Shown here: positions 10,063-59,173 of the stretch, piece by piece
How positions within the stretch are numbered: the stretch's first letter is position 1
How the letters are laid out: each line of letters starts with the position of its first letter
Assembly (NCBI RefSeq): GCF_023701485.1
Contig: NZ_JAMQBK010000024.1
Span: 62,001 to 126,000, forward strand
From: Aporhodopirellula aestuarii
GTDB taxonomy: Bacteria; Planctomycetota; Planctomycetia; Pirellulales; Pirellulaceae
DNA: 64,000 nt
Direction: 5' to 3'
Position numbers and translations under genes: made by a program
Notes under the pieces: model-generated
Databases searched by the model: none
The model's input: only the letters and a program-made list of their open reading frames with translations
What the model was told of the DNA's origin: nothing

Positions 10063-10337
10063 GATTTGGCGGACCTTGATGTGGTTGCTGGCTTCGACTT
10101 AAGCAGTGTTGCTGCCTTTTCGCCCAGCTCTTCACGCCACGCCTCGTCGGCCCGACGTTGATATTCGTCGGCGATCGCCTCGGCCTCTTCGTTAAGCTGC
10201 TGCTGTCGGAAGCTGGTCGGCCGCACAAGCGGCTGGGTGAAGTTGAGGTTGCCGCCGTCTCGGTCGCGTTTCTTAGCAGGCAATAAGGCCACAGCAACGA
10301 GAACCAGGACGACAACGGTTGCAATTCCAAGAATCAT
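10059..10337 (-). CDS. Small single-span membrane protein
   Basis: I place the start at the ATG at 10337, giving 92 residues beginning MILGIATVVVLVLVAVALLP. That is one strong N-terminal membrane helix followed by a charged, Glu/Arg-rich cytoplasmic or periplasmic helix. A longer frame upstream (to 10433) is Arg/His-rich and overlaps the preceding gene, so it is unlikely. It lies among head genes with another membrane protein. A lysis role (holin or spanin-like) is possible but unproven. Confidence 0.6.
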   Translation of the reverse strand: MILGIATVVVLVLVAVALLPAKKRDRDGGNLNFTQPLVRPTSFRQQQLNEEAEAIADEYQRRADEAWREELGEKAATLLKSKPATTSRSAKS

Positions 10338-10342
10338 GAGCC

Positions 10343-11371
10343 TTACATGCCTCGCTTGATGAGAATGAATCCGAGTAGAATGATCGCAACGACAATCAAT
10401 GCGAGCGTCGCCAATTCGCCGGCGCCGGCCCAAATCAGTGCGTTGCGCCCGTCAGAATCGCGGTCGAAGAGTGGCTCGCGATCACGGTCCCGATCGAAGG
10501 GCCGCCACGTGGGCTCGGTCGGTTCGATCGGACAATAGCCGTCCGGACAGTCTTCAGGAGAGAGTTGAAGCGTTGGCGAGATCGCCGAATCCCAAGAATA
10601 GCCTCGCGATTTGAGAGCTCCAGTTTTCTGGGCTTGGCGAGTCTGCTGATAGAGTTCGTATCCGTGTCGCAAATCGTCGTACAGTTCCGCCGGAGTCGAT
10701 GGCAACATCGTGTAGCCGGCTGCATGAACGTGACCTCCGCTTGAATCCTGGAAAAGAACGACGGGGAACTGGCTTGCCGGCACGATGTCCGCAAAGCGAG
10801 TTTTGTAGAGGGCGTTGCTCTCGGTGTAGACCTGGAATTCACAGCTCTTTCGGAGTTTCGAGAGCTTTGCGTCCTTGTTAAACCATTCCAACAACTGTTG
10901 GCTCTTCGCGTCGTTGCCGATAAACAAGGCGATCTGGTATCGCTTCGGGGATGGCTGTGGGACCGCGTTGTCGTTGGCATTTGTCGGCGTGACAAAAATC
11001 GGCGCAGGAACGGTCGGTGCGGGCACGGTCGTTGGCGACGGAGTTGCGGGCTGGACGACCGGTCTGGCGGGAACGACGTGATAGGGCCGAATGGTGGGCC
11101 GCACAACGGGCGGACATGACGGCGGGCAATAGCCGGATTGCTGCTTGAGCTCGCCTTGTGCTTCCAGATTCACGTGGGCCGGTTCAGGCAGCTTCTCAAT
11201 TTGCCGCCCAACCTGCGGAGCGGGTCGCGCTGTCGGAAGCCGCCACTCGTCGCTCACTTGTGGCTTTGGCGTTCGATGCAGCGCGGTAAACACGGCTGCA
11301 AGCATAACCGCATGCAGCACCGCGACAACGATCAGACCGGCGCTCAGTCGGATCCGAATTTCATCCTTCAT
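10343..11371 (-). CDS. Membrane protein with thioredoxin-like middle domain
   Basis: A protein of 342 residues from the ATG at 11371, which overlaps the upstream stop. It has an N-terminal membrane helix (LSAGLIVVAVLHAVMLAAVF), a Pro-rich spacer (about 60-135), a folded middle domain (about 140-230, 'YQIALFIGNDAKSQQLLEWF') and a C-terminal membrane helix (LATLALIVVAIILLGFILI). The middle part has the strand-helix rhythm and cis-Pro-like 'QFPVVLFQD' of a thioredoxin fold but no CxxC, so it would be redox-inactive. It is encoded within the capsid operon between a lipoprotein and a small membrane protein. Function is unknown. Confidence 0.65.
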   Translation of the reverse strand: MKDEIRIRLSAGLIVVAVLHAVMLAAVFTALHRTPKPQVSDEWRLPTARPAPQVGRQIEKLPEPAHVNLEAQGELKQQSGYCPPSCPPVVRPTIRPYHVVPARPVVQPATPSPTTVPAPTVPAPIFVTPTNANDNAVPQPSPKRYQIALFIGNDAKSQQLLEWFNKDAKLSKLRKSCEFQVYTESNALYKTRFADIVPASQFPVVLFQDSSGGHVHAAGYTMLPSTPAELYDDLRHGYELYQQTRQAQKTGALKSRGYSWDSAISPTLQLSPEDCPDGYCPIEPTEPTWRPFDRDRDREPLFDRDSDGRNALIWAGAGELATLALIVVAIILLGFILIKRGM

Positions 11372-12347: not shown

Positions 12348-12680
12348 CTATTGGCTCAGGCGGACACGCACGATTTCATCGTCGGTTGCTGCGGGCAGTA
12401 CCGCTTTTCCAAGCAGCTTGTTACCGGTCGCCGTCGTCTGCGGCTCGTTACTTCCGTCGACGTAAACTTTCTGGCCGACCGTGAAAGCAACCGCGCCGGC
12501 AGGATCTTTGGGCACGTCGAAAACGCCCTCAACGGCAATCGCTCCCAGCGTGTCGGCTTTGATCGCTCGCCTGGTAATACCGACAAGATCGCCTTGAACC
12601 ACGATCTCTCCAGATGCAAGATCGGCGACGGGTGTGTGATCGATGGCCGAACCATCGTGAACGAACTCTGCTGCAGACAT
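12348..12680 (-). CDS. DUF2190 capsid decoration protein (copy 1)
   Basis: A 110-residue protein from the ATG at 12680 (MSAAEFVHDGSAIDHTPVAD). A longer reading to 12731 adds a Ser/Pro-rich leader that does not match its paralogue. It has the DUF2190 blocks GEIVVQGDLVGITRRA and AVEGVFDVPKDPAGAV. It sits directly after the protease-capsid gene. The presence of two tandem copies suggests duplication, with the two perhaps occupying different capsid sites. Confidence 0.82.
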   Translation of the reverse strand: MSAAEFVHDGSAIDHTPVADLASGEIVVQGDLVGITRRAIKADTLGAIAVEGVFDVPKDPAGAVAFTVGQKVYVDGSNEPQTTATGNKLLGKAVLPAATDDEIVRVRLSQ

Positions 12681-12743
12681 AAAAACCTCAGGTGGACTCG
12701 AATGTGTTGGTTGCTGTGACGGGGAAGACACGGTTCCCAGGAT

Positions 12744-14762
12744 TTACGCTTCGCCCGTGACCTTCACGGCTGCGCGGTGGTCTTGAGAATTCACGCCAAA
12801 GTCGATGTACGATCGGAAACCCATACCCAGCGTGTTCGGCGGCATTTCGACTCGCTCGATGACCGGCGTGCGACGGCCATTGAGGAACACGATCTCAAAC
12901 GCCGGCAGCACATTGGGGTTGGCGAACAGATACCACGCCGTGCCGCTTGCGCCGGTGTAGTACGAATCCGACAAGTGAGGCGTACTGATGATCCGGTACT
13001 TATTGCGGTGCGGGTTATCGACTGGGATTTTGGTCGGTGAGCCTTGAGCATCGATCATCAACTGGGACGAGCCCATCAGCAATTCCGCCTCGGTTTCAAG
13101 CTCCACTGGAACCACCAAGTACTCGGGGCGAATATTGATCGGTTTCTGATCTTTGGGTTTGCCGCCTGGACCGGCTTTCTGTTTGCGGAAGGTGGTCTTG
13201 GCGACGGTCAACGCATCGGGACCGAACTTAGTGTCGGCACCGGAGAGCAGGTTCGCGTTACCTGAGGAGAAGAAGCCCGTGTTCTTCAGCAGCAGCGTGA
13301 AGAACAGATCGTCGATCGACTCGGCTCCGGAGCGTCCCATCTGGCGTGGGATATCCATGAACGCCGACAAGTCGTCGTTAATGATGTCATGTCGCGTCAG
13401 CGTCAGGATCTGGCCATACGTGTCGGCCTTGTTACTGAATTTTTGGTCCGATAACTTACCGTGCTTGAGTTCCCCATCAGGGGCGACTTGCTCAAAACCA
13501 CCGGTCCCGAGCAAACGATAACGGGCGACTTCCTTAAAGTCGGTGACCGTTCCCACGCTGCAAAGATCGAAGGCGGCGATCGGGGTGTTTTGATAGGCCG
13601 CCAGCAGCGTCTTGTTCATGACGTTTTCCATGATGCTGGGCAGACTCATGGAACTGAAACCCGCTCGAATGGTTGCCGTACCATCGCCAAAGACGCGAGG
13701 CACGTCGATGCCTTCCATGCGAGCGCACTCGGCGACGAGTTCACGCAAGCCGATGTGACGTAGCGGGTTGGCGGCGTTGAGCGTCTTTTCGCCATAGCTG
13801 GCTAGCAGCGTTTTTTCTTCGATGCCGACCGACAGGCAGGCAGCAGCTTCGAGGACCTCGCGACTGTATCGCGGTGAGTTTTGCGTCTGCTCGGGAGCCT
13901 TGGGGCGTTCGCTTCTCAGCACGGCGAGTTCCGTTTTGGTTGTGGACCAGCCTTGCTCAATCGCATCGGCTTCGATATCGGCATGATTGCCCGCACACAC
14001 CTTGCGAATGCCGGCGATGCGACGAGATTCCGCAGCGGCTTCGGCACGCATGTCGTTGACCGGTGAAGTGGTCGCTGTTTTGTTTTCGGTCTTTGGTTTG
14101 GTGCTCATGTTCAAACTTGCGTTGACGGGTTCGAGGTCGTCGGTTTCTTCATCCGTATCGCCGGGATCATCGCCCTCGGCGTAGTTGCCGGCAGCGACGC
14201 GAGCCTCGGTATCGTCGTCAGCACCCAAAGCGACGAACGAAACCTCGCCCAGCGTTGACTTGCGAGCGACATAGACTGGCCCCTTGAACTCGCGACCATT
14301 GGCGTTGGCCGTTTTGCCTTCAGGAATGAACACAACCTTGTCGGCACTCGCACCCAGCGAGGCTTGCCACGGGAAACCGTTTTCACTGGTCGCGATCACT
14401 TCCTGAGCCGTCGCACCAACTCCTGAGATCACGCCGGCGACTTCGAGCGATTTGTCGGTGATCGCGATGTCGTCTGTGTGCCCAACGATGCTGCCCCGAT
14501 CGTGGTCTTTCAAAATCGGACGAGACTTGCGGGTCACTCGCATGCCAGCTAAATCGACCACCACCGGATAAGGCCAACCGCCCAACCGCATCGCACCGCC
14601 GGTGTACGCGGTCATCGAGAACTTACGCAGTGACGGCTTGCCTTCTTCTGGCGTTTCGGCTGCGGCGAGCGTGATCGTCGCAGCGTCGTCACAAACGATT
14701 CGCAGCGAACTGGGAACGGATTCGGCGTCGGCTTCAAGCGGCGCGTGCTGTGTCTTCGGCAT
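12744..14762 (-). CDS. Prohead protease-major capsid protein fusion
   Basis: A 672-residue protein from the ATG at 14762 (MPKTQHAPLEADAES), overlapping the end of the portal gene. Residues 1 to about 220 look like a phage prohead protease, with RPILKDHDRGSIVGHT (His near 85) and 'PWQASLGASADKV' (Ser near 134). An Asp/Glu-rich linker and a helical scaffold-like part (about 250-330) follow. The C-terminal half is an HK97-fold capsid protein related to Mu-type heads ('RHDIINDDLSAF', 'PRQMGRSGAESIDDLFF', C-terminal 'RSYIDFGV'). One gene thus supplies protease, scaffold and shell, and self-cleavage would release the capsid subunit. Fusions of this type are known in some phages. Confidence 0.85.
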   Translation of the reverse strand: MPKTQHAPLEADAESVPSSLRIVCDDAATITLAAAETPEEGKPSLRKFSMTAYTGGAMRLGGWPYPVVVDLAGMRVTRKSRPILKDHDRGSIVGHTDDIAITDKSLEVAGVISGVGATAQEVIATSENGFPWQASLGASADKVVFIPEGKTANANGREFKGPVYVARKSTLGEVSFVALGADDDTEARVAAGNYAEGDDPGDTDEETDDLEPVNASLNMSTKPKTENKTATTSPVNDMRAEAAAESRRIAGIRKVCAGNHADIEADAIEQGWSTTKTELAVLRSERPKAPEQTQNSPRYSREVLEAAACLSVGIEEKTLLASYGEKTLNAANPLRHIGLRELVAECARMEGIDVPRVFGDGTATIRAGFSSMSLPSIMENVMNKTLLAAYQNTPIAAFDLCSVGTVTDFKEVARYRLLGTGGFEQVAPDGELKHGKLSDQKFSNKADTYGQILTLTRHDIINDDLSAFMDIPRQMGRSGAESIDDLFFTLLLKNTGFFSSGNANLLSGADTKFGPDALTVAKTTFRKQKAGPGGKPKDQKPINIRPEYLVVPVELETEAELLMGSSQLMIDAQGSPTKIPVDNPHRNKYRIISTPHLSDSYYTGASGTAWYLFANPNVLPAFEIVFLNGRRTPVIERVEMPPNTLGMGFRSYIDFGVNSQDHRAAVKVTGEA

Positions 14763-16227
14763 TGTCTTCCGTGACCTTGGTTGAGGGTTGGGTTTCAGTT
14801 TCATCGCTGGCCGACAGACCAAGCTCACGCATCAGCGACACTTCTTTGGCACGCTGTTTGAGTTCCGTCTCCCAATCACGCCCCTGCCGCGCAAATTCGA
14901 TGGCCAGAGTCGTCGTATGATTCGAGAGACGGATCTTTTGGGCATTGGCTTCTTTGGCGGGATCGACATGTTCGTGCCCGTCCCAGAACCATTGGTGCTC
15001 GAACGTGCTGTCGAGCGTGCGAAGCGAATTGGGCAGATAGCCCTCGATGAGAATGGCTTCGCGAAGCCAAGCAATCAAAACGCGATCCAGCACGACGCGA
15101 GCGAGTTGGGTTTGCTCAACACGGATCGACTTGAAGTAGGTTTGGTGATCGAGTCGCCCACTCGCGTAGTTGTAACCGCTAGAATTTCCAGCAGCGACAT
15201 TGAAAGGCATGTTCAAGCAGCGAGCGATCTCGTTGAGGATCTCTTTCTTGAATTCGGCATACGTGGTCGATGGTTGCTCCGACCTCATTTGAGCCATCTT
15301 CCAGCCGCCCGGCATCGTGAGCAGCATTCGCTTCTCAAGTTCGATCGGCTCGAATGGTTCCGCAGCGTCTGCCTCACCATTGGCCGGCGCGTCGGTGTAG
15401 AGGATGCCAGCAAAGTCAGCCGCGGTTTCGGCAGCCGCAAGTACGGCGAGTGTGAACCGACGAAGTTGTGCGAATAGAGGCAACGCCGGCGTGATGTCGG
15501 GAATGCCACGAATCTGACCCGGACGATCGCAGCGGAAGTAGTGCAGCACTGCGGCGGCCGGCACCGTGTCAAACTCCTCGTTAATCGCAAACGTCACATC
15601 GCCAGGATGTTCGCGAAGCACGTCGTAGCTGAGCGGGTTTCCGTCGGTATCAAACTGGATTCCGTCGATGTATCGTGTTCGGTCCGCAACCAACGTCGGC
15701 GAGGCCACTTGGTCGGCTTCGATCAATCGCAAGTCGAGCTTCACGGTCGAGTCAACTCGTTCGTTGCTGGTCAGCAAACCAAACGATTCACCGTCCGAAA
15801 CGCGGGCGAGTCGCATGGTTCGTAGCTTTTCCGCCAGACCTACCGCCTCGGCCCAAGCGGAGAACTCTTGTTCGACAAAACGATTCGCTTCAGCATCGGG
15901 CGTCAGCATTTGCAAACGTGGCCCAGTGCCCACGACATCATTCGCCAGCGTTAACGTGATCCCGCGAGCGTAGCTGTTGTTGGCGACCTCGTATCGCGAC
16001 CGATTGCGAAGTGTTCGCCTCACATCGGGACTATTCGCTGCAGCAGACGACAGACCATCGGCCCGCGACCAATGTTTCATGTTGTCGAGCGTCGTGTTCG
16101 CCGCGTCGTACTTCGCACGAAGCCGCGAGAAGAAGGGCTGCCGGGGCGAGCGTCCCGGCGTGGATGAAGAGCGGGAAGCTCCGCCACGCCATGCTTGCTC
16201 GATAATCCCTGACAAACGTTTCAACAT
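14734..16227 (-). CDS. Phage portal protein (lambda B family)
   Basis: I choose the ATG at 16227 (MLKRLSGIIEQAW), giving 497 residues; a further 18 codons upstream are open but less likely. Lambda-type portal features include an early 'LRNRSRYEVANNSYARGIT', 'RLARVSDGESFGLL', 'LRLIEADQV', 'RCDRPGQIRGIPDITPALP' and 'GNSSGYNYASGRLDHQTYF'. The portal forms the dodecameric DNA entry ring and binds the terminase. It is followed, with overlap, by the protease-capsid gene, as expected. The normal terminase neighbour is displaced by about 6 kb. Confidence 0.9.
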   Translation of the reverse strand: MLKRLSGIIEQAWRGGASRSSSTPGRSPRQPFFSRLRAKYDAANTTLDNMKHWSRADGLSSAAANSPDVRRTLRNRSRYEVANNSYARGITLTLANDVVGTGPRLQMLTPDAEANRFVEQEFSAWAEAVGLAEKLRTMRLARVSDGESFGLLTSNERVDSTVKLDLRLIEADQVASPTLVADRTRYIDGIQFDTDGNPLSYDVLREHPGDVTFAINEEFDTVPAAAVLHYFRCDRPGQIRGIPDITPALPLFAQLRRFTLAVLAAAETAADFAGILYTDAPANGEADAAEPFEPIELEKRMLLTMPGGWKMAQMRSEQPSTTYAEFKKEILNEIARCLNMPFNVAAGNSSGYNYASGRLDHQTYFKSIRVEQTQLARVVLDRVLIAWLREAILIEGYLPNSLRTLDSTFEHQWFWDGHEHVDPAKEANAQKIRLSNHTTTLAIEFARQGRDWETELKQRAKEVSLMRELGLSASDETETQPSTKVTEDNAEDTARAA

Positions 16228-16290
16228 CCGTGATGTAATCCTATTGCCGTCCCCGGCAGCCCTGTGCTCATCGCAAAGCAAAAAGAATGA

Positions 16291-16488
16291 TCAGCCAGCC
16301 GACGGCGGCACGATCTTGTTAAATCGCAAGCCGCGATTCGGCTTCCGAACCGCGTCCTTGCCAGCGAGATGCTTGTCCGCAGCGATCTGCTCCGTCAGCT
16401 TGTGCTGCTCAACCGAACCCGCATCACCCGAAGCCTTCGCAGGCCCCGCAGCGTTCTCACGAATTTCATCATTGAGATCATCAGCCAT
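16291..16488 (-). CDS. Small protein between terminase and portal
   Basis: A 65-residue protein from the ATG at 16488 (MADDLNDEIRENAAGPAKAS). It has a helical N-terminus, the central 'EQHKLTEQIAADKHLAGKDA' and a basic end 'RGLRFNKIVPPSAG'. Short proteins of this type occupy the gpW slot between large terminase and portal in many prophages of proteobacteria and planctomycetes. A head-completion role is likely by position. A GTG three codons upstream is an alternative start. Repeated motif A lies about 30 bases upstream. Confidence 0.7.
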   Translation of the reverse strand: MADDLNDEIRENAAGPAKASGDAGSVEQHKLTEQIAADKHLAGKDAVRKPNRGLRFNKIVPPSAG

Positions 16489-16517
16489 CGCCGGCACTCA
16501 CTTGCTCGAAAACAAAC

Positions 16518-16568
16518 GTCCCTCTCAGGGTTACTTAGGCGAAGTGAGCCGTGGGTAAACCAGAAAAT
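16518..16568 (-). promoter_or_regulatory. Repeated upstream motif, copy A
   Basis: Read on the minus strand this stretch has ATTTTCTGGTTTACCC, a spacer, then CCTAAGTAACCCTGAGAGGG, and it ends about 30 bases before the gpW-slot gene. Related stretches lie at 39344-39394 (B), 46364-46410 (C) and, shorter, 43442-43478 (D), each just upstream of the first gene of a minus-strand unit. The conserved spacing points to a promoter, operator or 5'-leader element rather than coding sequence. Confidence 0.5.
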
Positions 16569-16677
16569 TGGCCGCGAAACGCAAATCGTCCTCTGGTATC
16601 TCTCGTGAGGATCCAGAATTGTGTTCCCCGATGCGTCGGTTGATGAAACGAACAGGCCAAGAGTAGAGATAAGGCTC

Positions 16678-16717
16678 CGGTGTCGGCCACCGGAGCACCG
16701 AAAAGAATCGGCAGAAA
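16678..16717. repeat. Inverted repeat, left copy, flanking sensor cassette
   Basis: These 40 bases match the reverse complement of 22386-22425 at 38 positions. The core contains its own small hairpin (CCGGTG-TCGGC-CACCGG). The pair brackets the MerR-like/hybrid-kinase cassette that splits terminase from portal. The remaining 300 bases between the portal block and the kinase stop hold no gene I can support. Confidence 0.75.
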
Positions 16718-16810
16718 AACACGAAGAAGTCTGGCAGGGTGATTTGTCGAAGGTGAATCACCAATTTGCTAGCAGCGAATAGCTGTATGCCCACAAATCT
16801 GCCAGCTTAC

Positions 16811-19800
16811 TCAGTTGAAATCAGAACTGTTCGAGCCTTCGCGTACCAGCCGGTCGATCATGCCGATCATCACTTTGCTGTCGACCGGTTTGGTGGTGTA
16901 GTCAGTGCAACCGGCAGCAAGACACTCGTCTCGGTCTTCTTTCATCGCGTTGGCGGTCAAGGCAATGATGGGAAGCTTGCAACCAAACTGCCGTAGTTCA
17001 GCGACTGCCTCGTAGCCGTCCATCACTGGCATCTGCATGTCCATTACGATGATGTCTACTTCCGGTGCATCCTCGGCGGTAACGAAGTCGACCGCTTCTC
17101 GCCCATTGGTTGCCGTGTGTACGGTTCCGCCAGCTTTTTCAACGAAGTGTTGAGCGAGATAGCGAATGTCACGTCGGTCATCGACGATGAGCACGCTGCA
17201 GGAAATTTGCGGATCGTCGCTCGCCGCGTCCAACGGCGTTTCGCGGTTCAGATTGGGTTCAATGAGTTGCGTTTCGTTTTGCACGTTCAGCACTAAACTG
17301 AAACGGCTGCCCTCACCGGGTTGGCTGTCGGCTGTAATTTCGCCGCCAAGCGAGTAAGCGAGACGACGACAGATGGTCAAGCCAAGACCTGTCCCGCCAG
17401 CGGAGCGGGTTGTGGTGGCATCGGCCTGCGTGAACGGTTCAAACAGCGAATCCAGCTTATCCTCGGCAATGCCCAGCCCCGTGTCGATCACATCAAAGTG
17501 CATCGTTTGGTCGGACTGGTCGTAGCGAATCACAAATCGAACTTCACCGTCATCGGTGAACTTAATTGCATTGCCAACCAAGTTTAAAAGCACCTGCCTC
17601 AGTCGGACCGGATCGGTGTCGATCATCTCGGGAACAGGTCCGTCAAATTCGATCTTCAACGGCAATCGTTTTTCGGCCGCTCGCACGTCCATCAATGATC
17701 GAACTTCACCCACGATCGCATCGGGCCGCACCGGTCGCGATGCGACTTCCATCTTGCCGGCGTCAATCTTCGACAAGTCCAAAATGTCATTGATGATATA
17801 CAACAAGTGCCGACCGTTACGGCGGATCGTATCGACGACCGACAAGTTGTCAGGATCTTTCAGGTGATCGTTGAGGATATCAGCGTGACCCAAGATGGCC
17901 GCCATGGGCGTTCGGATTTCGTGCGACATGTTGGCCAGAAATTCACCACGTGATCGGTTCGCGGCTTCGGCCTCGTCGCGTGCTTGAGCGAGTCGTTCGC
18001 GCTGTTTGTGCTGATCGGTGAAATCAAGTACGGCCACGACCGTGTTGCGAGCGACTTGCTTCCCTTTCACAGTTCTGTAGTAGACGCGTTTGGAGGCGCG
18101 GACCCAGCGGACTTCGCCATCGGGGAGTAGCACTCGATGCTCAAATGAACTGACGCGTTCATCGGGATCTTGGATAAAACGGTCAATTTCTGCGACCAGT
18201 CCCTCACGCTCTTCCGGGTGAAACCGATCGTGAATCTCGTTGCGTGATACCGCTTCACCGGACGGCAGACCAAACGTTTTGGCCGCGATGTCATCGAGGA
18301 CCGCTTGGTTGGTTTTGTAGTCGACTTCGATAACCCCAATCTTTGCCAAGTTAATGGCCAGTCTCGCGCGACCTTCGCTAATCTCCAACCGCTGAAACGC
18401 AGTCGTCGTGTCAGTGATATCACGGGCAACCCCGGCCACACGATTGATTGATCCGTCGGACTCGCGGATTGCGTTGGCTTTGTCGGCAATCCAGCGGGTT
18501 TCGCCTTCGCGAACGATGCGATACTCAACTTCAAAAGGTCCTACGTCGGGCTCGCTAATGAATCGTTCGAACGCCCTGCTAACCCGCTCCCGGTCGTCGA
18601 CGTGAATCGCTTCGGACCAATGCCGGGCGTCTTCCAATAGATCTTTGGCTTTGCGTCCCCACAACTTCTCGTACGCGGGACTGACGTAAAGCACACGCTC
18701 GGGATCAATCTGCGTGATCCAGAACACGTAGTCCGATACCTCCGCAATCTGCCGCAAACGTTCCTCGCTGGTCGACAACTCCAACTGCATCCGTCGCAGA
18801 TCCGTCACGTCTTCGACGACCGAGTTGACACCGATCACTTCAGCATCGTCGGCATGTTTGTCGAACACCGGATGGTAGCTGACGCGATATTTGTGCAGTT
18901 TTTCATCAGCATGGGTCTGTCCGATGACCTCCAAATCGTCGATCGGCTTGCCCGTTGCAAAGACCTGCTCGTAGCACTGCTCAACTCCCTCCACCAATGG
19001 CTCGGGTAAAACATCCCGCAGCGTTTTACCGATCGTGTCTTCGACCGACACGCCGTTCACCTCCGCCAGCCGACGATTGATGCTCCGGTAGGTGCGATCC
19101 TTGGCGATGAAGGACAAACCGATTGGCGTGGCTTCGTAGATGGTTTCCAGTTCGGCCAAACGAGTTTGTGCGATCTGTTTGCTACGCTTGAGATCGGTGA
19201 CGTCGGAGAACGTCATCACGACCCCGCGAATATGATTGTCTTCGGTGCGATAGGGCTGCAGCCGGCCGAGAAAACTCTTTGCATCGGTCGTTGCAACGTC
19301 ACACTGACGCGGCTGGAGTGATTCGAGAACCTCACGAGCCAACTGGAACAATTCATCGGTGTTGAAGTCGGCACGAACGTCCAGCAGAGGACGCCCGTTG
19401 TCCGATGGAATCAAGTGGAACAGATCGGTCGCTGATGGAGTGAAGCGGCGGATGCGGAAATGGGTGTCGATGAACACCGTCGGCAAATGCGTACTCAGCA
19501 GCAAGTTGTTGAGGTCATCGGTAGTGTCCTGCAACTGATGCAGCTTGATTTCCAACTGGTTGTTCAGCGTGACCAATTCTTCGTTGAGTGATTGCAGTTC
19601 TTCTTTTGACGTTTCTAGCTCTTCGTTGCCGGCCTGCAGTTCCTCGTTGACCGCCATGGACTCTTCGTTAGCCGCCTGCAACTCCTCGTTGGCCGTTTCG
19701 AGATCTTCGATCGTCGTGGATAACTGTTGGCGAGTTGTATCGAGCTCGTGAGACAGCTCGCTGTTTTCGAATCTCAAGGACTCAATCAAAGCGTCCTTGT

Positions 19801-21769
19801 CGTCTGCTTCGACATCAAACTTGGCCGCTAGCTGCGCGGAATTTGGTTTGGATTGGGGTGGCGCGGGAACATCGGTTGGTGTTGAGCTGCCTGAGATATC
19901 CGCTGGCATGAACGAGAGCAACACCGCACCGTCTTGTCCTCGCAGCGGTCGCGCCACCAACCGGACGGGATAGTATTTTCCGTCTCGGCGTACGCGTCCA
20001 TCGACGGTGTGCGTATCAAACGAATCGCGAACCCTGCGTAGCAGCGGCCGAACTTTGCTCCGCAGACCTTCGCGGACCATGTCCAGAATGAGCGGTGGTG
20101 GACCACCAAGTTCACCAACTCCGGTTTGCAAGTACTGGTCGATCTGTCCTTGCAGGTACGTCGCCCGGTCGTCGACGTTGACCACGGCGACGCCCATCTT
20201 CGCTTCACGAATCATCTGCCGCTGGACAAGCGTCGCCAGATTGCCACGTCGCTGATCCGTCTCCCTCCTTGTCGGCCGGGTCTCGGTCATCGAAGGCGGC
20301 GGATCGTTGTCCCGCTCGATCGGCGGCATCGCCGCCGTTGCGGTCCGTTTGAATAATCGCCATCGTTTGTCAATCGCCGTGAAGTGACGCGATGCATCAC
20401 CCGTCGATTCGCTGCTGCCCAAGAAGAGTCCGCCGCCTTCTTTGAGTGCAAACTGAAAAACATCGAGCACACGCCGCTGGGCCGGCCGGTCGAGGTAGAT
20501 AAGCAGGTTTCGGCAGACGATCAGATCAAGCTGCGAGAATGGCGGATGTGACAGCACGTTCTGCTCAGCGAAAACGATGGTTTCCCGCAGTCGTCGTGAG
20601 ACTTGGTAGTGATTGCCTTCTTTGTGAAAGAAGTGCTGCAGTCGCGTCGAGGTCAAATCGGCCACGACCGATTCGGGATACAGTCCTTCGCGGGCCGTCG
20701 AAAGTGCCTCGGTCGAGATGTCGGTCGCAAAGATTTGAAACGAGGGTCGTTTTGGCGCGGTGTCCGCATTTTCATGACACAACATTGCCAGCGAATAAAC
20801 CTCTTCGCCGCTCGCGCACCCGGCACACCAAATCCGAATCGGCCGCGAATCCTCACTGGCCTTGATCATCGGTCCCAGTAGAGTTTTTTGCAGCGAATCC
20901 CATGCATCCGGGTTACGAAAGAATTTTGTCACGCCGATCAGCAGATCCGACTTCAGGCTGGCGGCTTCTTTCTTGTCGTCCTTCAGCAGATGCAGGTAAT
21001 CCTCCATCGATGTGAGCTGCTTTAGCCCCATGCGACGCCGAACACGGCGGGTCATCGTGTTGCGGCGATAGCGGCGAAAGTCGGTGCCGGAATTTTCCTT
21101 CAGGTGTGTGATAATCGCTTCGAGTTGATCACGGTGTTGAATGGATTCTTGCGCCGACAGCAAACTGTGCTCGCGAGCATGCTGGACGTAACTCACCAAT
21201 CGATGACCGATCTGTTCCGCCGTCAGCGTGAAGTCGACCTGCAAGGCGTTGATCGCGCTTTGCGGCATACCGATGTGTTCGGCGTCGTGCGGATCTTGGG
21301 CGACGGTCAAACCGCCACACATTTTGATCTCTTTCAAACCTGCGGTGCCGTCGGTACCCGTGCCTGAAAGCACGACGCCGACAGCGTATTCGCATAGATC
21401 TTCGGCCAACGACCGAAAGAAGTAGTCAATCGACATTCGTGCCCCGCGTTCTTCCGTCGGCTGCGTCAGCTTTAGAACGCATTTGTCGATCAACAGATAC
21501 TTGCCAGGCGGAATGACGTAGACGTACCCGTCTTCGATCTCGGTATCCTCAGTGACTTCCTGAACATGCAAGGAAGTCTTCCGCTGCAGAATCTCCGTCA
21601 GTGCACTGTCATGCGTTGGATCCAGGTGTTGAATGATCACAAACGCCATCGGAGGATCGTTCGGCAGACTGGACAACATCCGCATCAACGCATCAAGACC
21701 TCCGGCGGAGGCGCCCACACCAACAACCACCGGGCGTTCGTGGGAAGATTCGTCTTGTTTGTCGTTCAC
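16811..21769 (-). CDS. CheB-CheR-PAS hybrid histidine kinase with receiver
   Basis: A 1652-residue multidomain signalling protein, GTG start overlapping the upstream HTH gene. The order is CheB methylesterase (about 5-190; GVGASAGGLDAL with the active Ser, QHLDPTHDSAL with the His, SGTGTDGTAGLKEI with the Asp), CheR methyltransferase (about 215-490; GCASGEEVYSLAM SAM loop near 320), PAS-like segment, long coiled coil (about 660-755), four further PAS/PAC units (about 765-1265), HisKA (NMSHEIRTPM, His near 1283), HATPase (NLVGNAIKF, DTGLGI) and a C-terminal receiver (IIVMDMQMPVMDG, phospho-Asp near 1575). All catalytic residues look intact. There is no membrane segment, so it is a cytosolic sensor. 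Such proteins are frequent in planctomycete chromosomes; its place inside a prophage packaging module is odd. Confidence 0.95.
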   Translation of the reverse strand: MNDKQDESSHERPVVVGVGASAGGLDALMRMLSSLPNDPPMAFVIIQHLDPTHDSALTEILQRKTSLHVQEVTEDTEIEDGYVYVIPPGKYLLIDKCVLKLTQPTEERGARMSIDYFFRSLAEDLCEYAVGVVLSGTGTDGTAGLKEIKMCGGLTVAQDPHDAEHIGMPQSAINALQVDFTLTAEQIGHRLVSYVQHAREHSLLSAQESIQHRDQLEAIITHLKENSGTDFRRYRRNTMTRRVRRRMGLKQLTSMEDYLHLLKDDKKEAASLKSDLLIGVTKFFRNPDAWDSLQKTLLGPMIKASEDSRPIRIWCAGCASGEEVYSLAMLCHENADTAPKRPSFQIFATDISTEALSTAREGLYPESVVADLTSTRLQHFFHKEGNHYQVSRRLRETIVFAEQNVLSHPPFSQLDLIVCRNLLIYLDRPAQRRVLDVFQFALKEGGGLFLGSSESTGDASRHFTAIDKRWRLFKRTATAAMPPIERDNDPPPSMTETRPTRRETDQRRGNLATLVQRQMIREAKMGVAVVNVDDRATYLQGQIDQYLQTGVGELGGPPPLILDMVREGLRSKVRPLLRRVRDSFDTHTVDGRVRRDGKYYPVRLVARPLRGQDGAVLLSFMPADISGSSTPTDVPAPPQSKPNSAQLAAKFDVEADDKDALIESLRFENSELSHELDTTRQQLSTTIEDLETANEELQAANEESMAVNEELQAGNEELETSKEELQSLNEELVTLNNQLEIKLHQLQDTTDDLNNLLLSTHLPTVFIDTHFRIRRFTPSATDLFHLIPSDNGRPLLDVRADFNTDELFQLAREVLESLQPRQCDVATTDAKSFLGRLQPYRTEDNHIRGVVMTFSDVTDLKRSKQIAQTRLAELETIYEATPIGLSFIAKDRTYRSINRRLAEVNGVSVEDTIGKTLRDVLPEPLVEGVEQCYEQVFATGKPIDDLEVIGQTHADEKLHKYRVSYHPVFDKHADDAEVIGVNSVVEDVTDLRRMQLELSTSEERLRQIAEVSDYVFWITQIDPERVLYVSPAYEKLWGRKAKDLLEDARHWSEAIHVDDRERVSRAFERFISEPDVGPFEVEYRIVREGETRWIADKANAIRESDGSINRVAGVARDITDTTTAFQRLEISEGRARLAINLAKIGVIEVDYKTNQAVLDDIAAKTFGLPSGEAVSRNEIHDRFHPEEREGLVAEIDRFIQDPDERVSSFEHRVLLPDGEVRWVRASKRVYYRTVKGKQVARNTVVAVLDFTDQHKQRERLAQARDEAEAANRSRGEFLANMSHEIRTPMAAILGHADILNDHLKDPDNLSVVDTIRRNGRHLLYIINDILDLSKIDAGKMEVASRPVRPDAIVGEVRSLMDVRAAEKRLPLKIEFDGPVPEMIDTDPVRLRQVLLNLVGNAIKFTDDGEVRFVIRYDQSDQTMHFDVIDTGLGIAEDKLDSLFEPFTQADATTTRSAGGTGLGLTICRRLAYSLGGEITADSQPGEGSRFSLVLNVQNETQLIEPNLNRETPLDAASDDPQISCSVLIVDDRRDIRYLAQHFVEKAGGTVHTATNGREAVDFVTAEDAPEVDIIVMDMQMPVMDGYEAVAELRQFGCKLPIIALTANAMKEDRDECLAAGCTDYTTKPVDSKVMIGMIDRLVREGSNSSDFN

Positions 21770-21999
21770 GAATTTTCCTCGCGTTCTTTGAGACGCCGCT
21801 TGATGAATGCTTCAATGTCTTTGGAGCGGTAGTAGCGGTAGCCAGTTAGCGGATGCCGCTGAGCAACCAAGGTGCCCGATCGATCCCAATTGCGCAGCGT
21901 CTCGGTCGTCACGCCACACATTGTTGCCGCTTCGGCGATCTTCAGCAGACCCTTCAGTTGCTCTACTCTTTCCTGCACGTTCGTTGACACGGCCAACAC
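21766..21999 (-). CDS. MerR-type/excisionase-like HTH protein
   Basis: A 77-residue protein. The sequence 'LLKIAEAATMCGVTTETLRNWDRSGTLVAQRHPLTGYRYYRSKDIEAFI' is a MerR-superfamily winged helix (the 'TLRNWDRSG', 'RYY' and 'DIEAFI' pattern) with no effector domain. Similar short proteins serve as DNA-binding regulators or recombination directionality factors. It overlaps the hybrid kinase start (GTGA), so the two are co-translated. It may regulate the cassette promoter or be linked to its mobility. Confidence 0.85.
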   Translation of the reverse strand: MLAVSTNVQERVEQLKGLLKIAEAATMCGVTTETLRNWDRSGTLVAQRHPLTGYRYYRSKDIEAFIKRRLKEREENS

Positions 22000-22470
22000 T
22001 CCAAAACCTTACAAAAACCAAATTGCAAACAAAGGATAATCGATTTGGCGAAGGGCTAACAGACGTTTTGGGCTGCGTCGGCACTCCGATTCTCTTTTGA
22101 AACGCTAATCCGGCCATTCAACGAGGACTACAAACTTACTTTTTGAACACTCGCGATCGCTAACAAGTGCGCGTCGGACCTAGACGAAAAAAGCCAGCAT
22201 TGAGCTGAATCGGGTGGATCTTTGTCGTTGAGATGGACCAGGAAAAAAATGAGGCCGCGGCATGTTGGAAAAGCACACGTATCGCTAGCAATGACGTCAG
22301 CTCGCTACCCGGGGGTTCAATTACCGGGCATTTCGAAGTCGAAGGAGTCTTATCGTGTCAGACCTAACCACTCCGTTGCAGCGGGTTTCTGCCGATTCTC
22401 TTCGGTGCCCCGGTGGCCGACACCGGGCGCTCCGGTTTTCTTGACTGCAGCGCTCTACCGAACGGTGGAG
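22000..22470. other. Non-coding stretch upstream of the sensor cassette
   Basis: These 470 bases separate the terminase stop from the HTH start. They hold the right inverted repeat (22386-22425) and must contain a promoter if the cassette has one of its own. ORFs here have no protein-like pattern. The base composition is visibly more AT-rich near 22010-22160 than in the phage genes, consistent with a regulatory region. Confidence 0.5.
22386..22425. repeat. Inverted repeat, right copy, flanking sensor cassette
   Basis: Reverse complement of 16678-16717 with two mismatches in 40. It lies 46 bases after the terminase stop codon. The two copies are 5.7 kb apart and in opposite orientation, so they could be terminal repeats of a non-autonomous element, recombination sites, or two copies of a dispersed intergenic repeat. 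Confidence 0.75.
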
Positions 22471-24729
22471 CTAGCTTCGTTTTCTGCGTTGAAGCTCTTT
22501 GAAACTAACCCGTCCTCTTTTTGGTGCGAATGGTCGATCGGTTCCAAATAACAACGCTCCCTGCATCGACGCGGCGACAGCGGTTCCGACTAGGCAGTCG
22601 AGCCAGTGGTTGTCGGGTTGCTCGGGGCGGGCTTTCCATTCGTCGACGGTTCGGCCGCGGCCTTCGGTTTTGATGAAGTACTCGGCGGTGATTTGCTCGG
22701 CGAACATGCGGTGTTGCTCGGCGCGGTCGCCGAAGACGGAGAGGCAGCCTCGGTCGCCCATGGCGACGGCGAGTCGGGCGTGGGTGAAGGACTTCCACCA
22801 GTTTGTGTCGTAGATGACGTGCCGGATGGCTCGTTTGCCGTGGACCGAGGGGACTCGCCAGTTGAGGCCGACGCGATCACCGGGCCGGCGTTTGTATTCG
22901 CTAAAGGGGCTGGACGATGCTCCAACGAAGCGTCCGTGGGAGGGAAGCAGGATCGAGGCGTGAGGGCTTTGTCGGCAGAATTGGTAGACGACGTTGGTGG
23001 AGTGGCCCCAGTTGGCGTCGATGAGGCAACGTTCGATTTTCATTGCCGCGCCGTCGTCGCGTTGCCATTCTCGGCCAAGTAAGTCGGTGGTCAGCTTTTC
23101 CATGCCGGCGTAGAGCGAGCCTTCGAGCCCGGTGCCTTCGGTGGCGAGCGTGTACCTCGCGTCGCGGAGTGTGAAGTAGGAACGTTTCTGGTCGGGGAAG
23201 GATCCATAGTCGACGACGTAGCCGGTGAAATCGTCTTCCCAGGCGGCGACGACGTAGAAGAGCAGTTTGCCTTGGACGTCGATGAACGCGGTGAGGTGGT
23301 TGGCGGCGATGGGAATGCAGCACCGGTTCATTCCGTTGAACTTTTGCGCGACTTGCTCGGCGGTGAGTTGGTCGGCATCGACGGTTTCGGCCGGCAACGG
23401 TTCGTTTTGATATTCGGCGAAGAACGCGGCTTCGTCTTGAAGCTTCAAGTTCATCGCGTGCTGGATCGCGGACAACTCGTCGTGGTTGAAACGCTCTTTC
23501 CATGCGACGTCGGCACCTTCGTCCATCGCAGCCTTGTTCTTGCGATAGAACTCGGTGCCGGCCGCTCCGCCATCGCCGGCTCGCAAACCTTCGCTGCGGA
23601 TCTCGGCGTAGCGTTCCCACAGGGTTTCGTTGGTTGGGAACGAGTTGACCATTCGCGTTCGCGAGCCGTTCCACTCGGGATGCTTGTCGCGGTCGAGGAT
23701 GTTGTCGGCCATGTCGCCGGGGCGAATGACCGTGCACGGCATGATGCCGGAGATCTTTTTGCCAGGGCCAGCGAGCCCGAGCACCGCGCCGGCGAGTATC
23801 GCTTCGCGGTTGGCACATTGCGATAGCGAACGAGCAGACTCGTCGGTTTGCGGATCGTCGAGGACGACCAACGATGGCCGGACCGTTTTGCCGTCGGGCC
23901 GTTTGAACTTCATCCCGCGGATTCGGCCGGTGAGGCCAGCGACTTTGATGATTGCACCGCTCGCTTTGCTGCCTTCGATGCTGGGGAGGACGACTTCTTT
24001 CGCGGTCCAGCCGATTTGCGTGCGTTTTCCTTGGTGGAGTTGTCCGTTGGCTCGGTTGGCTATGCCGTCGAGTGCTTGAATCGGAAAGCAAACCTCGGGG
24101 TAGTCGGCCAGTAGTAGGTCGTTGCCGTCTAGTTCGGTCTTGATGGATTCGAGCATGTCGCAGGCGTGGCCTTCGTCGCTGCCGATCAAGCAAACGAAAT
24201 CGCGATAGCCGTTAAGCACCGCCCAGATACAGGCGACTTCGGCGAGCGAACTCTTGCCGCTACCGCGAGCCATCGCCAGCGAAAACAAACCGCCTCGAAC
24301 GACGGCTTCTTCGATTTTGTTGATGACGGCGATGTGGTCCGGCGACCAGGAGAGATGAAACGTCAGCGAAAAGTAGGCTTCGCAAAAGTATCGGAAACTG
24401 TCGGCGGCTTTTGATTTACGTTCACCGTCGGCGACCGGTGGCAGTTCTCCGATGTCCCGGCCGGCCAGTGACTTCGCTGCGTTTCGTTCCCGCGAGTAGT
24501 CCTTGTGCTTTTCGTAGGCATCGGTGTCGTCAGCTTTGGGTCGGTGTCGGTCTTCGATTAGCAGGCCGGCGAACTTCAGCAAGTGAACGCTCTTGCCGTC
24601 ACCGATGCGAAGACCTGCTCGCGTTCGATAACGGTGGAGTTGTCGTTCGTTGATGACTTCGCCGAGCGACGTGCTGTTGAGTAGCCGGCAACACTCGCTC
24701 GGTCGAAGTTTCGCTGGGTCAAGTTGCAC
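22471..24729 (-). CDS. Phage large terminase subunit
   Basis: A 752-residue protein from the GTG at 24729, which is preceded by AGGAG and overlaps the end of the upstream small gene. A longer reading (to 24810) lies wholly in that gene. The ATPase has Walker A ARGSGKSS (near residue 155) and Walker B LVVLDDPQTDE (near 290). The C-terminal half carries the nuclease fold with acidic residues ('TAFIDVQGK', 'CLIDANWG', 'NHWLDCLVG'). It cuts and packages DNA into the prohead through the portal. An N-terminal extension of about 120 residues before the ATPase may replace a separate small subunit in DNA recognition. Confidence 0.93.
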   Translation of the reverse strand: MQLDPAKLRPSECCRLLNSTSLGEVINERQLHRYRTRAGLRIGDGKSVHLLKFAGLLIEDRHRPKADDTDAYEKHKDYSRERNAAKSLAGRDIGELPPVADGERKSKAADSFRYFCEAYFSLTFHLSWSPDHIAVINKIEEAVVRGGLFSLAMARGSGKSSLAEVACIWAVLNGYRDFVCLIGSDEGHACDMLESIKTELDGNDLLLADYPEVCFPIQALDGIANRANGQLHQGKRTQIGWTAKEVVLPSIEGSKASGAIIKVAGLTGRIRGMKFKRPDGKTVRPSLVVLDDPQTDESARSLSQCANREAILAGAVLGLAGPGKKISGIMPCTVIRPGDMADNILDRDKHPEWNGSRTRMVNSFPTNETLWERYAEIRSEGLRAGDGGAAGTEFYRKNKAAMDEGADVAWKERFNHDELSAIQHAMNLKLQDEAAFFAEYQNEPLPAETVDADQLTAEQVAQKFNGMNRCCIPIAANHLTAFIDVQGKLLFYVVAAWEDDFTGYVVDYGSFPDQKRSYFTLRDARYTLATEGTGLEGSLYAGMEKLTTDLLGREWQRDDGAAMKIERCLIDANWGHSTNVVYQFCRQSPHASILLPSHGRFVGASSSPFSEYKRRPGDRVGLNWRVPSVHGKRAIRHVIYDTNWWKSFTHARLAVAMGDRGCLSVFGDRAEQHRMFAEQITAEYFIKTEGRGRTVDEWKARPEQPDNHWLDCLVGTAVAASMQGALLFGTDRPFAPKRGRVSFKELQRRKRS

Positions 24730-24925
24730 GTCGTGTCTCCTGGAGTAGCCACGCGACGTAGGCGACCACGTTGAGCGTTCCGTCAGAGTTGGTTGGTGCG
24801 CCGGCGGCAACGTCGGCCTCGATTTGCTCCGGCGTGAATCGCGTTTGGCAGGCGTTACTGATCGCGGTCGCGGCGTCTTTGATCGGCAGCGAGTTAATCG
24901 TCACTGCTTTGCGTTTGTCTTCCAT
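24719..24925 (-). CDS. Small phage protein upstream of terminase
   Basis: A 68-residue protein starting MEDKRKAVTINSLPIKDAAT. A helix-turn-helix-like segment 'RFTPEQIEADVAAGAPTN' and a C-terminal 'NVVAYVAWLLQET' are visible. Its stop lies inside the terminase start region, so the two are coupled. It might be a small-terminase-like DNA-recognition protein, but it is short for that and the match is weak. Confidence 0.6.
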   Translation of the reverse strand: MEDKRKAVTINSLPIKDAATAISNACQTRFTPEQIEADVAAGAPTNSDGTLNVVAYVAWLLQETRRAT

Positions 24926-25008
24926 GACTGCTCTTGATTGGAGGGCTTCGCGACACGCCGCACACGTCGACGACTGTCGCGAATGTTTGCATGTTTGGCG
25001 TGGTTAGC

Positions 25009-25073
25009 CGCATGTTTTTGGACGCCACGTTGGGCCAAAACTGGCGGCGTGTTGGCGTCCAAAAAAACATGCG
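25009..25073. repeat. Long imperfect hairpin in the divergent early/late region
   Basis: Arms at 25009-25027 (CGCATGTTTTTGGACGCCA) and 25053-25073 pair almost fully, differing only in the length of the T/A run. The loop is 25 bases. It sits between the divergent late (minus) and early (plus) units, just upstream of the first copy of the four-copy element. It could be an operator, a bidirectional terminator-like structure or a replication element. Confidence 0.6.
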
Positions 25074-25098
25074 AAATCATTCAAAACGTTAGGCAGAC

Positions 25099-25135
25099 TT
25101 CGCTTGATGTGTTCCGAAACCCATGGCTCATGTGT
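25099..25135 (+). promoter_or_regulatory. Four-copy 37 bp element, copy 1
   Basis: The copy has TTCGCTTGATGTGTT, a short variable part, then CATGGCTCATGTGT, ending 64 bases before the amidoligase-like gene. The other copies are at 26299-26333, 27008-27044 and 28390-28426. TTGATG and the later TCATGT lie 18 bases apart, a plausible -35/-10 pair. Confidence 0.65.
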
Positions 25136-25199
25136 CACACGCGGCCGGCAAAACGCCACGCGAAACCCAACCACCTAGCCACCTTTCGGAGACACAACC

Positions 25200-26057
25200 A
25201 TGCACGCCAACGACATCGCCTTCGGTATCGAAATCGAAACTCACCTGCCCGGAAACGACACCACGCCGATCGGTGGATACCACAACGGCTTGCCGGTCGC
25301 TTGGCTGCCCGAAGGCTGGAAAGCAGAACGCGATAGCAGCATCCGCACGCCGGTCGGACGCAAGAACGCCGAGTTCGTATCGCCTATCCTTCGCGGGTAC
25401 GAAGGACTTCAAAACGTAGAACGAGCGGTCGACGCGATCAAAGCACGCGGGGCTCGGGTCAACGAAAGCTGCGGCCTTCACATCACCATCACCTGGAACG
25501 GTGACGCGGCCGCCTTGGCTCGGCTGATAAGCCTGATCGGAAACCACGAACGAGCCATCTACGCTTCGACGGGAACCAAACGACGCGAGCGAAATACCTG
25601 GGCGAAGCAGATCAAGAGCTACGGCAACAAGGACGCAGCAAAACGAAACTGCGAAGCAGACCGCTACCACCTTTTGAACTTGACGCACCTCGCTCGCGGC
25701 CGAAACCGAATCGAGATTCGAGCCTTCGCCGGCACGCTCAACAAAACCAAACTGCTTGGCTACATCCAAATGGTATTGGGCTTGGCCGAACTGGCTTTGA
25801 CCACGCGACGCTGCAGCGGATGGGACTACACCAAGCGACCTGGCACCAAGAGCTGCTGGGACCGCAACGGCGCGGGCGAAGGCGAAACGGAACTGAACCG
25901 CTTGTACTACCGCCTTGGCTGGACCATCGGCTGGCGTAAAGGAGCTCTTCGCACGAAACGATACGGCGAGCTTTCGGCCGGCGAACAAACCTGCGACTGG
26001 AAACCGGTCAAGAAGAAGCTTTTGCAAATGGCTCGCAAGTACGACCAAGCGGTCTAA
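25200..26057 (+). CDS. Amidoligase-like (COOH-NH2 ligase) protein
   Basis: A 285-residue protein. The N-terminal 'DIAFGIEIETHLPG' is the signature of the amidoligase family (Amidoligase_2), ATP-dependent enzymes related to gamma-glutamyl-cysteine and glutamine synthetases. Later blocks 'VNESCGLHITITWNG' and 'ADRYHLLNLTHLARGRNRIEIRAFAGTL' also fit, with the His and Glu/Arg residues expected at the active site. Members are predicted to make amide bonds on peptides or proteins and are common in phages and toxin or peptide-tag clusters. The start follows CGGAGACACAACC. A strong terminator follows the gene, so it is a single-gene unit behind repeat copy 1. Confidence 0.82.
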   Translation: MHANDIAFGIEIETHLPGNDTTPIGGYHNGLPVAWLPEGWKAERDSSIRTPVGRKNAEFVSPILRGYEGLQNVERAVDAIKARGARVNESCGLHITITWNGDAAALARLISLIGNHERAIYASTGTKRRERNTWAKQIKSYGNKDAAKRNCEADRYHLLNLTHLARGRNRIEIRAFAGTLNKTKLLGYIQMVLGLAELALTTRRCSGWDYTKRPGTKSCWDRNGAGEGETELNRLYYRLGWTIGWRKGALRTKRYGELSAGEQTCDWKPVKKKLLQMARKYDQAV

Positions 26058-26084
26058 ACGGCCGGCCAACTTCTTTCCTTCAAC

Positions 26085-26113
26085 GCCGCGGCCTTCACCG
26101 CGGCTTTTCTTTT
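26085..26113 (+). terminator. Rho-independent terminator after amidoligase gene
   Basis: A 7 bp GC stem GCCGCGG/CCGCGGC with a six-base loop is followed by TTTTCTTTT. It begins 27 bases after the amidoligase stop. Confidence 0.85.
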
Positions 26114-26298
26114 GCGCGTTGGTTTCCTTCCGAACCGTTTCCTTCCAAACGTTGGCGTTTTCTGGCGCACGTGTCGCGTCGTTCGCATAAGTAACCCTAA
26201 GGGGCCGAGTGTTTCGAGGACGCCGACACGCGGCCTTTGCGGGGCACGTCGGCGAGATCGAGAAACATGCAAAAAGACTGCAAATTGCAGTGCGAATG

Positions 26299-26333
26299 CG
26301 CTTGCTGTGTCTCAAAAACCATGGCTCATGTGT
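26299..26333 (+). promoter_or_regulatory. Four-copy element, copy 2
   Basis: The most divergent copy (CGCTTGCTGTGTCTC in place of CGCTTGATGTGTT), with the 3' half CATGGCTCATGTGT unchanged. It ends 45 bases before the next gene start. The 240 bases between the preceding terminator and this copy hold no gene. They include a fragment at 26181-26204 (TTCGCATAAGTAACCCTAAG) that resembles the core of the A-D motif. Confidence 0.6.
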
Positions 26334-26378
26334 GTCATCGCAAAACGAATTTTCCTTCCTACCTACGGAGACCAAACG

Positions 26379-26654
26379 ATGACGATTGACGCCCTGATCG
26401 AACTGCTGAGCGAGTACCGCGAACAACACGGGCCGGACGCTGAAGTGCGTTTGATGACGCAAGAGAACTGGCCCTTTGAAAACCGAATCGCCGGCGTCAC
26501 CAGCGGCTCGGAGATGAACGAGGCCAGCGAGGAAGACCCCAGCGAATACTTCGACGACCAAGACGTAGCGGAAGACGCGATCGTCTACATCGTCGAAGGC
26601 GGGCAGATCTGCTACGGCAGCAAGCGAGCCTGGGAAACCTGCCGCGACTGCTAG
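26379..26654 (+). CDS. Small acidic phage protein, unknown
   Basis: A 91-residue protein from ATG 26379 with TACGGAG upstream (MTIDALIELLSEYREQHGPD). The upstream extension of this frame is Arg/Cys-rich and runs through the promoter-like repeat, so it is excluded. It has the pattern of small phage early proteins: an N-terminal helix, a strand 'AEVRLMTQENWPFENRIAGV' and a C-terminal 'VYIVEGGQICYGSKRAW'. It is strongly acidic. A terminator follows directly. Confidence 0.75.
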   Translation: MTIDALIELLSEYREQHGPDAEVRLMTQENWPFENRIAGVTSGSEMNEASEEDPSEYFDDQDVAEDAIVYIVEGGQICYGSKRAWETCRDC

Positions 26655-59158: not shown

Positions 59159-59173
59159 GCCAAGTAATTCAAC

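Follow-up and report, generated by a model that had tools for sequence, protein, structure and literature searches.

The window analysed here is the whole 64,000-nucleotide stretch of contig NZ_JAMQBK010000024.1 of Aporhodopirellula aestuarii, and it is a complete-looking Rhodopirellula prophage. It carries genes for a tape measure, tail and connector proteins, capsid, portal, terminase, a DNA methylase, a primase, a helicase and a Sak4-like protein, together with an integrase of the invertase (serine) type. In this prophage, a block of 5,750 bp with two genes separates the terminase from the portal. The upstream border is the terminase large subunit with its GpA nuclease (22471..24810, minus strand, PF20454), and the downstream border is the lambda-type portal (14734..16281, minus strand, PF05136), which is preceded by a 68-residue protein in the gpW slot (16291..16497, minus strand). 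The two genes in the block lie on the same strand: a 77-residue MerR-type DNA-binding protein (21766..21999; MerR PF00376, E 6.7e-12) and a 1652-residue hybrid kinase (16811..21769), in which Pfam recognises CheB, CheR_N, CheR, several PAS, HisKA and HATPase_c domains and a C-terminal receiver. They overlap by 4 bp (bases GTGA). An earlier note made from the letters of this DNA had described a 5.7-kb two-gene operon between terminase and portal, and this description is confirmed.

The block is bounded by inverted repeats. The left arm (16677..16717, plus strand) consists of the hairpin GCTCCGGTG-TCGGC-CACCGGAGC and the inner bases AGCACCGAAAAGAATCGGCAGAAA, and the right arm (22386..22426, minus strand) is identical to it at 39 of 41 positions. 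The repeats were correctly recognised before, although they measure 41 nt with 39 complementary positions (95%) rather than 40 bp with 38 matches; 5,668 nt lie between the arms. Each arm folds on itself as a hairpin, the left with a 9-bp stem and the right with a bulged stem. A whole-genome search with one arm recovers the other (E 2.3e-11 and 5.8e-11), and a chance origin of the repeat was rejected on these values and on the pair statistics given below.

The genome contains a second, sister prophage that can be aligned to two stretches of the window, 12349-16491 and 22472-26653; in it 89 bp separate these stretches, which are 5,980 bp apart in the window. We paired each portal with the nearest same-strand terminase 3' end in 241 genomes of the family, using 81 terminase rows and 75 of 106 portals; the 31 left out were distant (below about 57% identity) or fragments, and some of the distant pairs among them also look widely spaced. 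Nine of the 75 portals had no terminase partner. With the gpW-slot gene included in the interval, the resulting 66 pairs comprise 34 short sites (228-634 bp) and 32 occupied sites (1,266-17,904 bp). Five of the 66 have only a 3' fragment of the terminase, one of them among the 34 short; in the short pair of G169 such a fragment adjoins the portal, a full terminase lies about 7 kb farther upstream, and this site is arguably occupied. Among 80 of 431 relatives in IMG/VR, some of which duplicate prophages of the genome set, 59 sites were empty, 14 were occupied and 7 were assigned to neither class. The earlier note had named an empty site in related prophages, joining terminase to portal, as the check for an insertion, and the sister prophage and the short pairs provide such sites.

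Inserts above 700 bp were absent from the junctions that follow, namely gpW-portal (0/48), portal-capsid (0/46), capsid-next (0/40) and the next four (0/12, 0/12, 0/11 and 0/11). Variation does occur at some connector and tail junctions further on, chiefly in distant relatives (2/33, 8/30, 1/30 and 8/27). The interval from the terminase to gpW/portal is a phage cargo hotspot, that is, a high-turnover locus between two conserved phage genes whose cargo differs between sites. The kinase and the MerR gene were found in none of the other 31 occupied loci (tblastn, E 1e-3), and the prospect that all relatives carry the kinase here, which the earlier note had named as fatal to an insertion, is thereby removed. 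This result also leaves little room for the kinase operon being an old resident of the phage family that relatives have lost, a reading we regard as almost certainly wrong: the short sites are too small to hold it, the nearest relatives found are chromosomal, and ancestral possession was rejected on the empty and differently filled sites of relatives.

Cargo in the hotspot is up to about 17 kb long. Its occurrence on both strands suggests that the terminase and the gpW/portal genes are separate transcription units. Scanned cargo includes a TacA-like antitoxin with a GNAT protein, a GmrSD/AAA pair, UvrD-type, KAP-type and dynamin-like proteins, and a DDE transposase, the last at a site with no hairpin pair (L175). 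FKBP-like, thiamine-binding-like and transport genes were labelled by eye from translations. Six of nine cargo proteins, hand-picked from the other occupied loci, match PADLOC models (QatA, GajB, NsnA, HEC-04 and LeoA; one match is weak), and three match none. A phage-borne chemosensory kinase, earlier called very unusual, is less odd in this setting, since other host-type cargoes occur at the same place. Fragments of the terminase 3' end lie between cargo and gpW at L164, L180, L188 and L189, and by reading at L255; they are the mark of past recombination in the terminase gene. They look as if the cargo had arrived with a new terminase end. Small cargo genes (thiamine-binding-like and FKBP-like, by eye) recur in L163, L167, L171, L173, L176 and L182, where a third recurrent protein, also by eye, starts near DDEEIKEDDREPGPEVTPKLFRKWQK.

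A hairpin pair frames the hotspot cargo in the window, in an R. rubra prophage (L183) whose cargo is a phosphorylase-AAA/STAND-like protein, in L178 (the same as L251), in L188 and in the metagenomic contig L255. In L186 the pair lies inside the cargo and not at its edges, and L174, L176 and L185 have one copy each. The suggestion of a mobile cassette or large moron can be kept and extended as regards the cassette, with the qualification that the site is a general cargo hotspot and that the hairpin pair is present at a minority of occupied sites.

The core of the repeat is the palindrome CCGGYGTCGGCCRCCGG with an asymmetric loop. Its exact 17-mer has four copies in this genome, which form two inverted pairs, one in the window and one on contig C99, where the pair frames a protein kinase gene and a second gene (DUF2971-like by eye). 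The degenerate core gave 108 matches in 13 genomes of the genus, compared with 11 for a reversed control. Neighbouring matches lie within 10 kb of each other in 35 cases, where uniform placement predicts 1.3, and the strand order is (+,-) in 25, (-,+) in 4, (+,+) in 4 and (-,-) in 2; a count of 25 out of 35 was reached in 0 of 100,000 strand shuffles. Within 16 kb there are 27 neighbouring (+,-) pairs, and about half of the 108 core matches lie outside such pairs. The genome-wide search for the repeat that the earlier note had proposed thus returns a dispersed sequence, yet one tied to cassette boundaries, and not the common repeat unrelated to insertions that it had held out as a counter-argument.

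The aligned arms have the consensus CCGGYGTCGGCCRCCGGWGC, about 20 bp reading inward, and conservation extends further inside than outside; beyond the search pattern, position 19 is G in 98% and position 20 is C in 85% of 62 arms. A loop-blind scan (CCGGYG-N5-CRCCGG) of loci not selected for the hairpin found 18 stems, of which 14 have the loop TCGGC; some of the stems come from one prophage that is present in duplicate. Cassettes can stand side by side, as on two contigs with 47 and 714 bp between core starts, and neighbouring cassettes in G007 and G011 each retain their own sites. In IMG/VR the core was found in 107 stretches, mostly as a single match, and one contig with an inverted pair belongs to the phage family of the window.

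Several further repeats were seen. A second dispersed palindromic word, GCTCCGGTTTCATCGACCGG, occurs near many hairpin arms (L017, L120, L201-L204 and others). The genome of the window also has a third hairpin pair (L120, 6302-12149, contig C105), which frames kinase-like, sulfotransferase-like and P450-like genes by eye, and the adjoining terminase fragment reads away from the cassette. Contig C16 of G000 holds eleven core variants (GGCGTCAGCCACCGG and TGTGTCGGCC.CCGG) within 1.4 kb (9481-10864). A 48-bp element (L193, 3158-3205) has many copies in some genomes of the genus, and a query holding it gave at least 27 matches in G006.

The position of the hairpins relative to sequence exchange was examined at orthologous chromosomal sites. 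At one site (A), the flanks on both sides are common to G006, G007 and G012 (84-93% identity), the match ends 0-5 bp from the hairpin core, and the contents between the flanks (4.5, 8.0 and 3.7 kb, respectively) are largely unrelated. An exception is formed by about 400 bp that L196 and L207 have in common; they lie at a tyrosine-recombinase-like gene or what is left of it. In G001, G002 and G009 the right flank of site A is common, the sequences differ at or near the same base, and degenerate hairpin halves remain. At a second site (B), both flanks are common up to the hairpin in G003, which holds 6.4 kb with a cyclase and effector of a cyclic-oligonucleotide-based anti-phage signalling system (CBASS), and in G006, which holds 0.96 kb; in G004 little separates the two outer flanks. 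Since flank homology runs as far as the hairpin and what lies inside differs, the hairpins mark exchange boundaries at these two sites. In the window, the left flank matches that of the C99 cassette over 408 bp at 92% identity, stops at the hairpin and is followed by different cargo; the 179-bp spacer and leader from the left arm to the gpW-slot gene (16498..16676, minus strand) is homologous to the flank of the C99 cassette. The other flank of C99 matches 56 bp that lie shortly after the terminase of a third prophage. Breakpoints thus coincide with the hairpins at both chromosomal sites, A and B, and with one of the two hairpins in the window.

The hairpin pairs frame one to several genes, often anti-phage systems. 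PADLOC matches were found in 15 of the 18 cassettes scanned (20 proteins examined), a biased rate because these 18 of 28 were scanned with proteins picked as large or unknown, and metal-efflux, metabolic and several small cassettes were left out. The count of 15 includes a generic protein-kinase match (L197b) and five weaker matches, and the other nine are strong and specific (L123, L192, L195, L197a, L198, L199, L202, L206 and L209). The framed matches include a CBASS cyclase and effector, Avs4, Avs2, IetS with its AAA partner (IetAS), AbiU, a type IIG enzyme, PDC-S06, PDC-S60 and PDC-S31. As a control, one of ten genes just outside cassettes matches PADLOC, and does so strongly (LmuB-like). 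Cassettes with metal-efflux or ordinary metabolic genes also occur, judged from translations, and some framed genes in L191 and L205a have no match in Pfam or PADLOC.

The kinase of the window gave only weak matches to PADLOC models. Its nearest relatives found are chromosomal, at 78% identity in G165 and 66% in G123, in a search limited to two scored candidates in each genome, which may have passed over closer ones. In G123 a MerR homologue (53%) precedes the kinase homologue. No good hairpin match (two mismatches or fewer) was found in about 20 kb around the kinase loci of G165 and G123. Judged by these sequence comparisons, the window kinase appears to be of host type, and its operon was probably acquired by the cassette from another source, as its chromosomal relatives lack good hairpin matches nearby. 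A promoter scan of the cassette remained at chance level (3 found, 2.8 expected).

Taken together, the block is probably an exchangeable cassette, framed by inverse palindromes with an asymmetric loop and lodged in a cargo hotspot of a family of planctomycete prophages; we place the probability of this reading at roughly 0.68. Relatives have nothing or other genes at this site, and similarly framed gene blocks lie at chromosomal sites across Rhodopirellula. The kinase cassette is one member of a wider family of hairpin-framed cassettes. The earlier cassette finding is sound, and it was under-described. In the mechanism we propose, the palindrome would be recognised by a putative site-specific recombining enzyme acting in trans, which would insert or swap whole cassettes. 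The prophage may benefit as it would from a moron: the host-type sensor kinase and the small MerR-like regulator could alter the signalling of the lysogenic host. Transcripts running out of the cassette may in addition be terminated at the hairpins, and the exchange and terminator roles can coexist. That the palindrome is the site of an undescribed recombination system, swapping cassettes among chromosomal sites and prophage hotspots in Rhodopirellula and its relatives, is a tentative proposal that we consider somewhat more doubtful than credible.

Several observations weigh against the exchangeable cassette and its proposed enzyme. No recombinase or transposase is consistently present in the cassettes (read by eye and partly scanned), and none is present in that of the window. 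A tyrosine-recombinase-like gene in one cassette is a weak match below the curated cut-off, fragments occur in two others, and another tyrosine recombinase adjoins a fourth cassette; these are candidates only. Among the 31 other occupied hotspot loci, hairpin pairs were seen in four (one inside the cargo), single copies in three and none in 24. Homology between the window and L183 stops 14 bp and about 62-64 bp short of the hairpins, the near-empty site of G004 also lacks some flank, and among the cassettes compared no cargo was found at two places. The loop is conserved in 59 of 62 arms, a figure that is partly circular because the loop belongs to the search pattern. Finally, the target duplication that the earlier note had suggested looking for was absent in all 28 pairs examined; the longest edge words in common were 4-6 nt and scattered, in part of the pairs.

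This last result bears on the possibility that the block is a non-autonomous DNA transposon with terminal inverted repeats and a transposase encoded elsewhere. Such repeats are present, with a sharp outer edge and conservation mainly inward, but the edges lack a direct duplication, and the same sites are reused with different contents in several species, unlike random transposition; we consider this origin very unlikely. The hairpins could instead be outward intrinsic terminators that insulate an acquired operon, as in a classical moron, with exchange occurring by other means and the terminators surviving at the edges. The 10 nt after the stem, read outward, are indeed T-rich (33.7% compared with 24.7% at control positions), a terminator-like T run follows 13 of 62 arms outward, none of the 62 inward and 4 of 62 control positions, and the left arm of the window, the one cassette edge with such a call, is terminator-like when read out of the kinase gene. 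However, 49 of the 62 arms lack a T run, a terminator needs neither the conserved loop (14 of 18 loop-blind stems) nor the inner GC, and at two orthologous sites the homology of both flanks stops at the hairpin. We therefore judge termination as the full account to be unlikely.

It could also be that the palindromes are dispersed intergenic repeats of the repetitive extragenic palindromic (REP) kind, and that cargo is swapped by homologous recombination in the conserved flanks. The many unpaired cores, about half of the 108, fit this account, as do the second palindromic word near many arms and the terminase 3' fragments after cargo, which point to homologous exchange in some phages. Homologous exchange is not expected, however, to put both breakpoints at the hairpin in separate comparisons or to yield the strong (+,-) orientation, and this explanation appears quite improbable to us.

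The remaining features of the window lie outside this argument. Pfam identifies a capsid protein flanking the block (12744-14828). The gpW-slot protein is kept in relatives (28 sequences aligned) and has no match in Pfam or PHROG; its structure model, a helix-strand-strand-helix arrangement, is of low confidence (predicted local distance difference test score, pLDDT, 60.6). In the connector region, several hundred bases between two genes (8860-9672) are absent from most compared relatives and may be a second, smaller insertion. A DUF2924 gene beside a serine-type recombinase occurs in two copies of opposite orientation (43889-45945 and 51245-53307), one at the prophage end and the other a few kb beyond, and these may be two neighbouring elements. 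Just beyond the prophage (56831-63151) lie CusB/HlyD-type and AcrB-type efflux genes with heavy-metal-binding domains. Three TGA codons seen inside the terminases of some relatives were checked in one of them, L065; there the stops fall within the first 20 aligned residues, and a later start is the simple reading.

If the exchangeable-cassette reading is right, Planctomycetota would possess a means of exchanging cassettes through which immune and signalling genes are shuffled between chromosome and prophages, and there would be a route, open to testing, from host sensor kinase to phage cargo. The hairpin pair could then serve as a search key for new defence systems, because some framed genes (L191, L205a) match no Pfam or PADLOC model. 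A literature search covering titles and the starts of abstracts, with few subscription papers or preprints, returned no description of this hairpin, hotspot or cassette family.

The morons of temperate phages are one or more extra genes placed between genes that adjoin in relatives, and the window cassette is inserted in just this way; unlike morons, it has a flanking repeat in common with chromosomal cassettes, and the hotspot cargo reaches about 17 kb on either strand. Integron cassettes form an exchangeable small stock with hairpin-forming attC sites and defence cargo, collected in one array beside the integrase. The present cassettes are likewise small and exchangeable, with hairpin-forming sites and defence cargo, whereas they have two inverse sites each instead of one attC and mostly stand singly at many sites. 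It is conceivable, with the odds leaning against it, that they belong to a Planctomycetota functional counterpart of integrons and dif modules for which the phage head module would be one docking site.

The P2 hotspot is a small high-turnover locus between two conserved phage genes, beside the portal gene and with defence cargo, and its authors suggest cohesive ends as a possible recombination substrate (PMC9122126). The present hotspot resembles it in being a high-turnover locus between conserved phage genes whose cargo includes defence systems; it differs in phage family and phylum, in its position between the terminase and the gpW-slot/portal genes, and in that some of its cargo lies between copies of a dedicated inverted hairpin, which is found around chromosomal cassettes as well. 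The dif (pdif) modules of Acinetobacter plasmids have two inverse short sites with half-sites and a central spacer and shuffled contents, and they can stand side by side (PMC13141974). The cassettes described here are similar in that a gene block lies between two inverse asymmetric sites and in that some stand side by side. The palindrome differs by eye from the pdif sites quoted in that source and does not show XerC/XerD sites with a 6-bp spacer, and the C and D configurations were not found, close pairs being mostly (+,-). Unlike the modules of plasmids in that source, the sites in Rhodopirellula lie on chromosomes and prophages.

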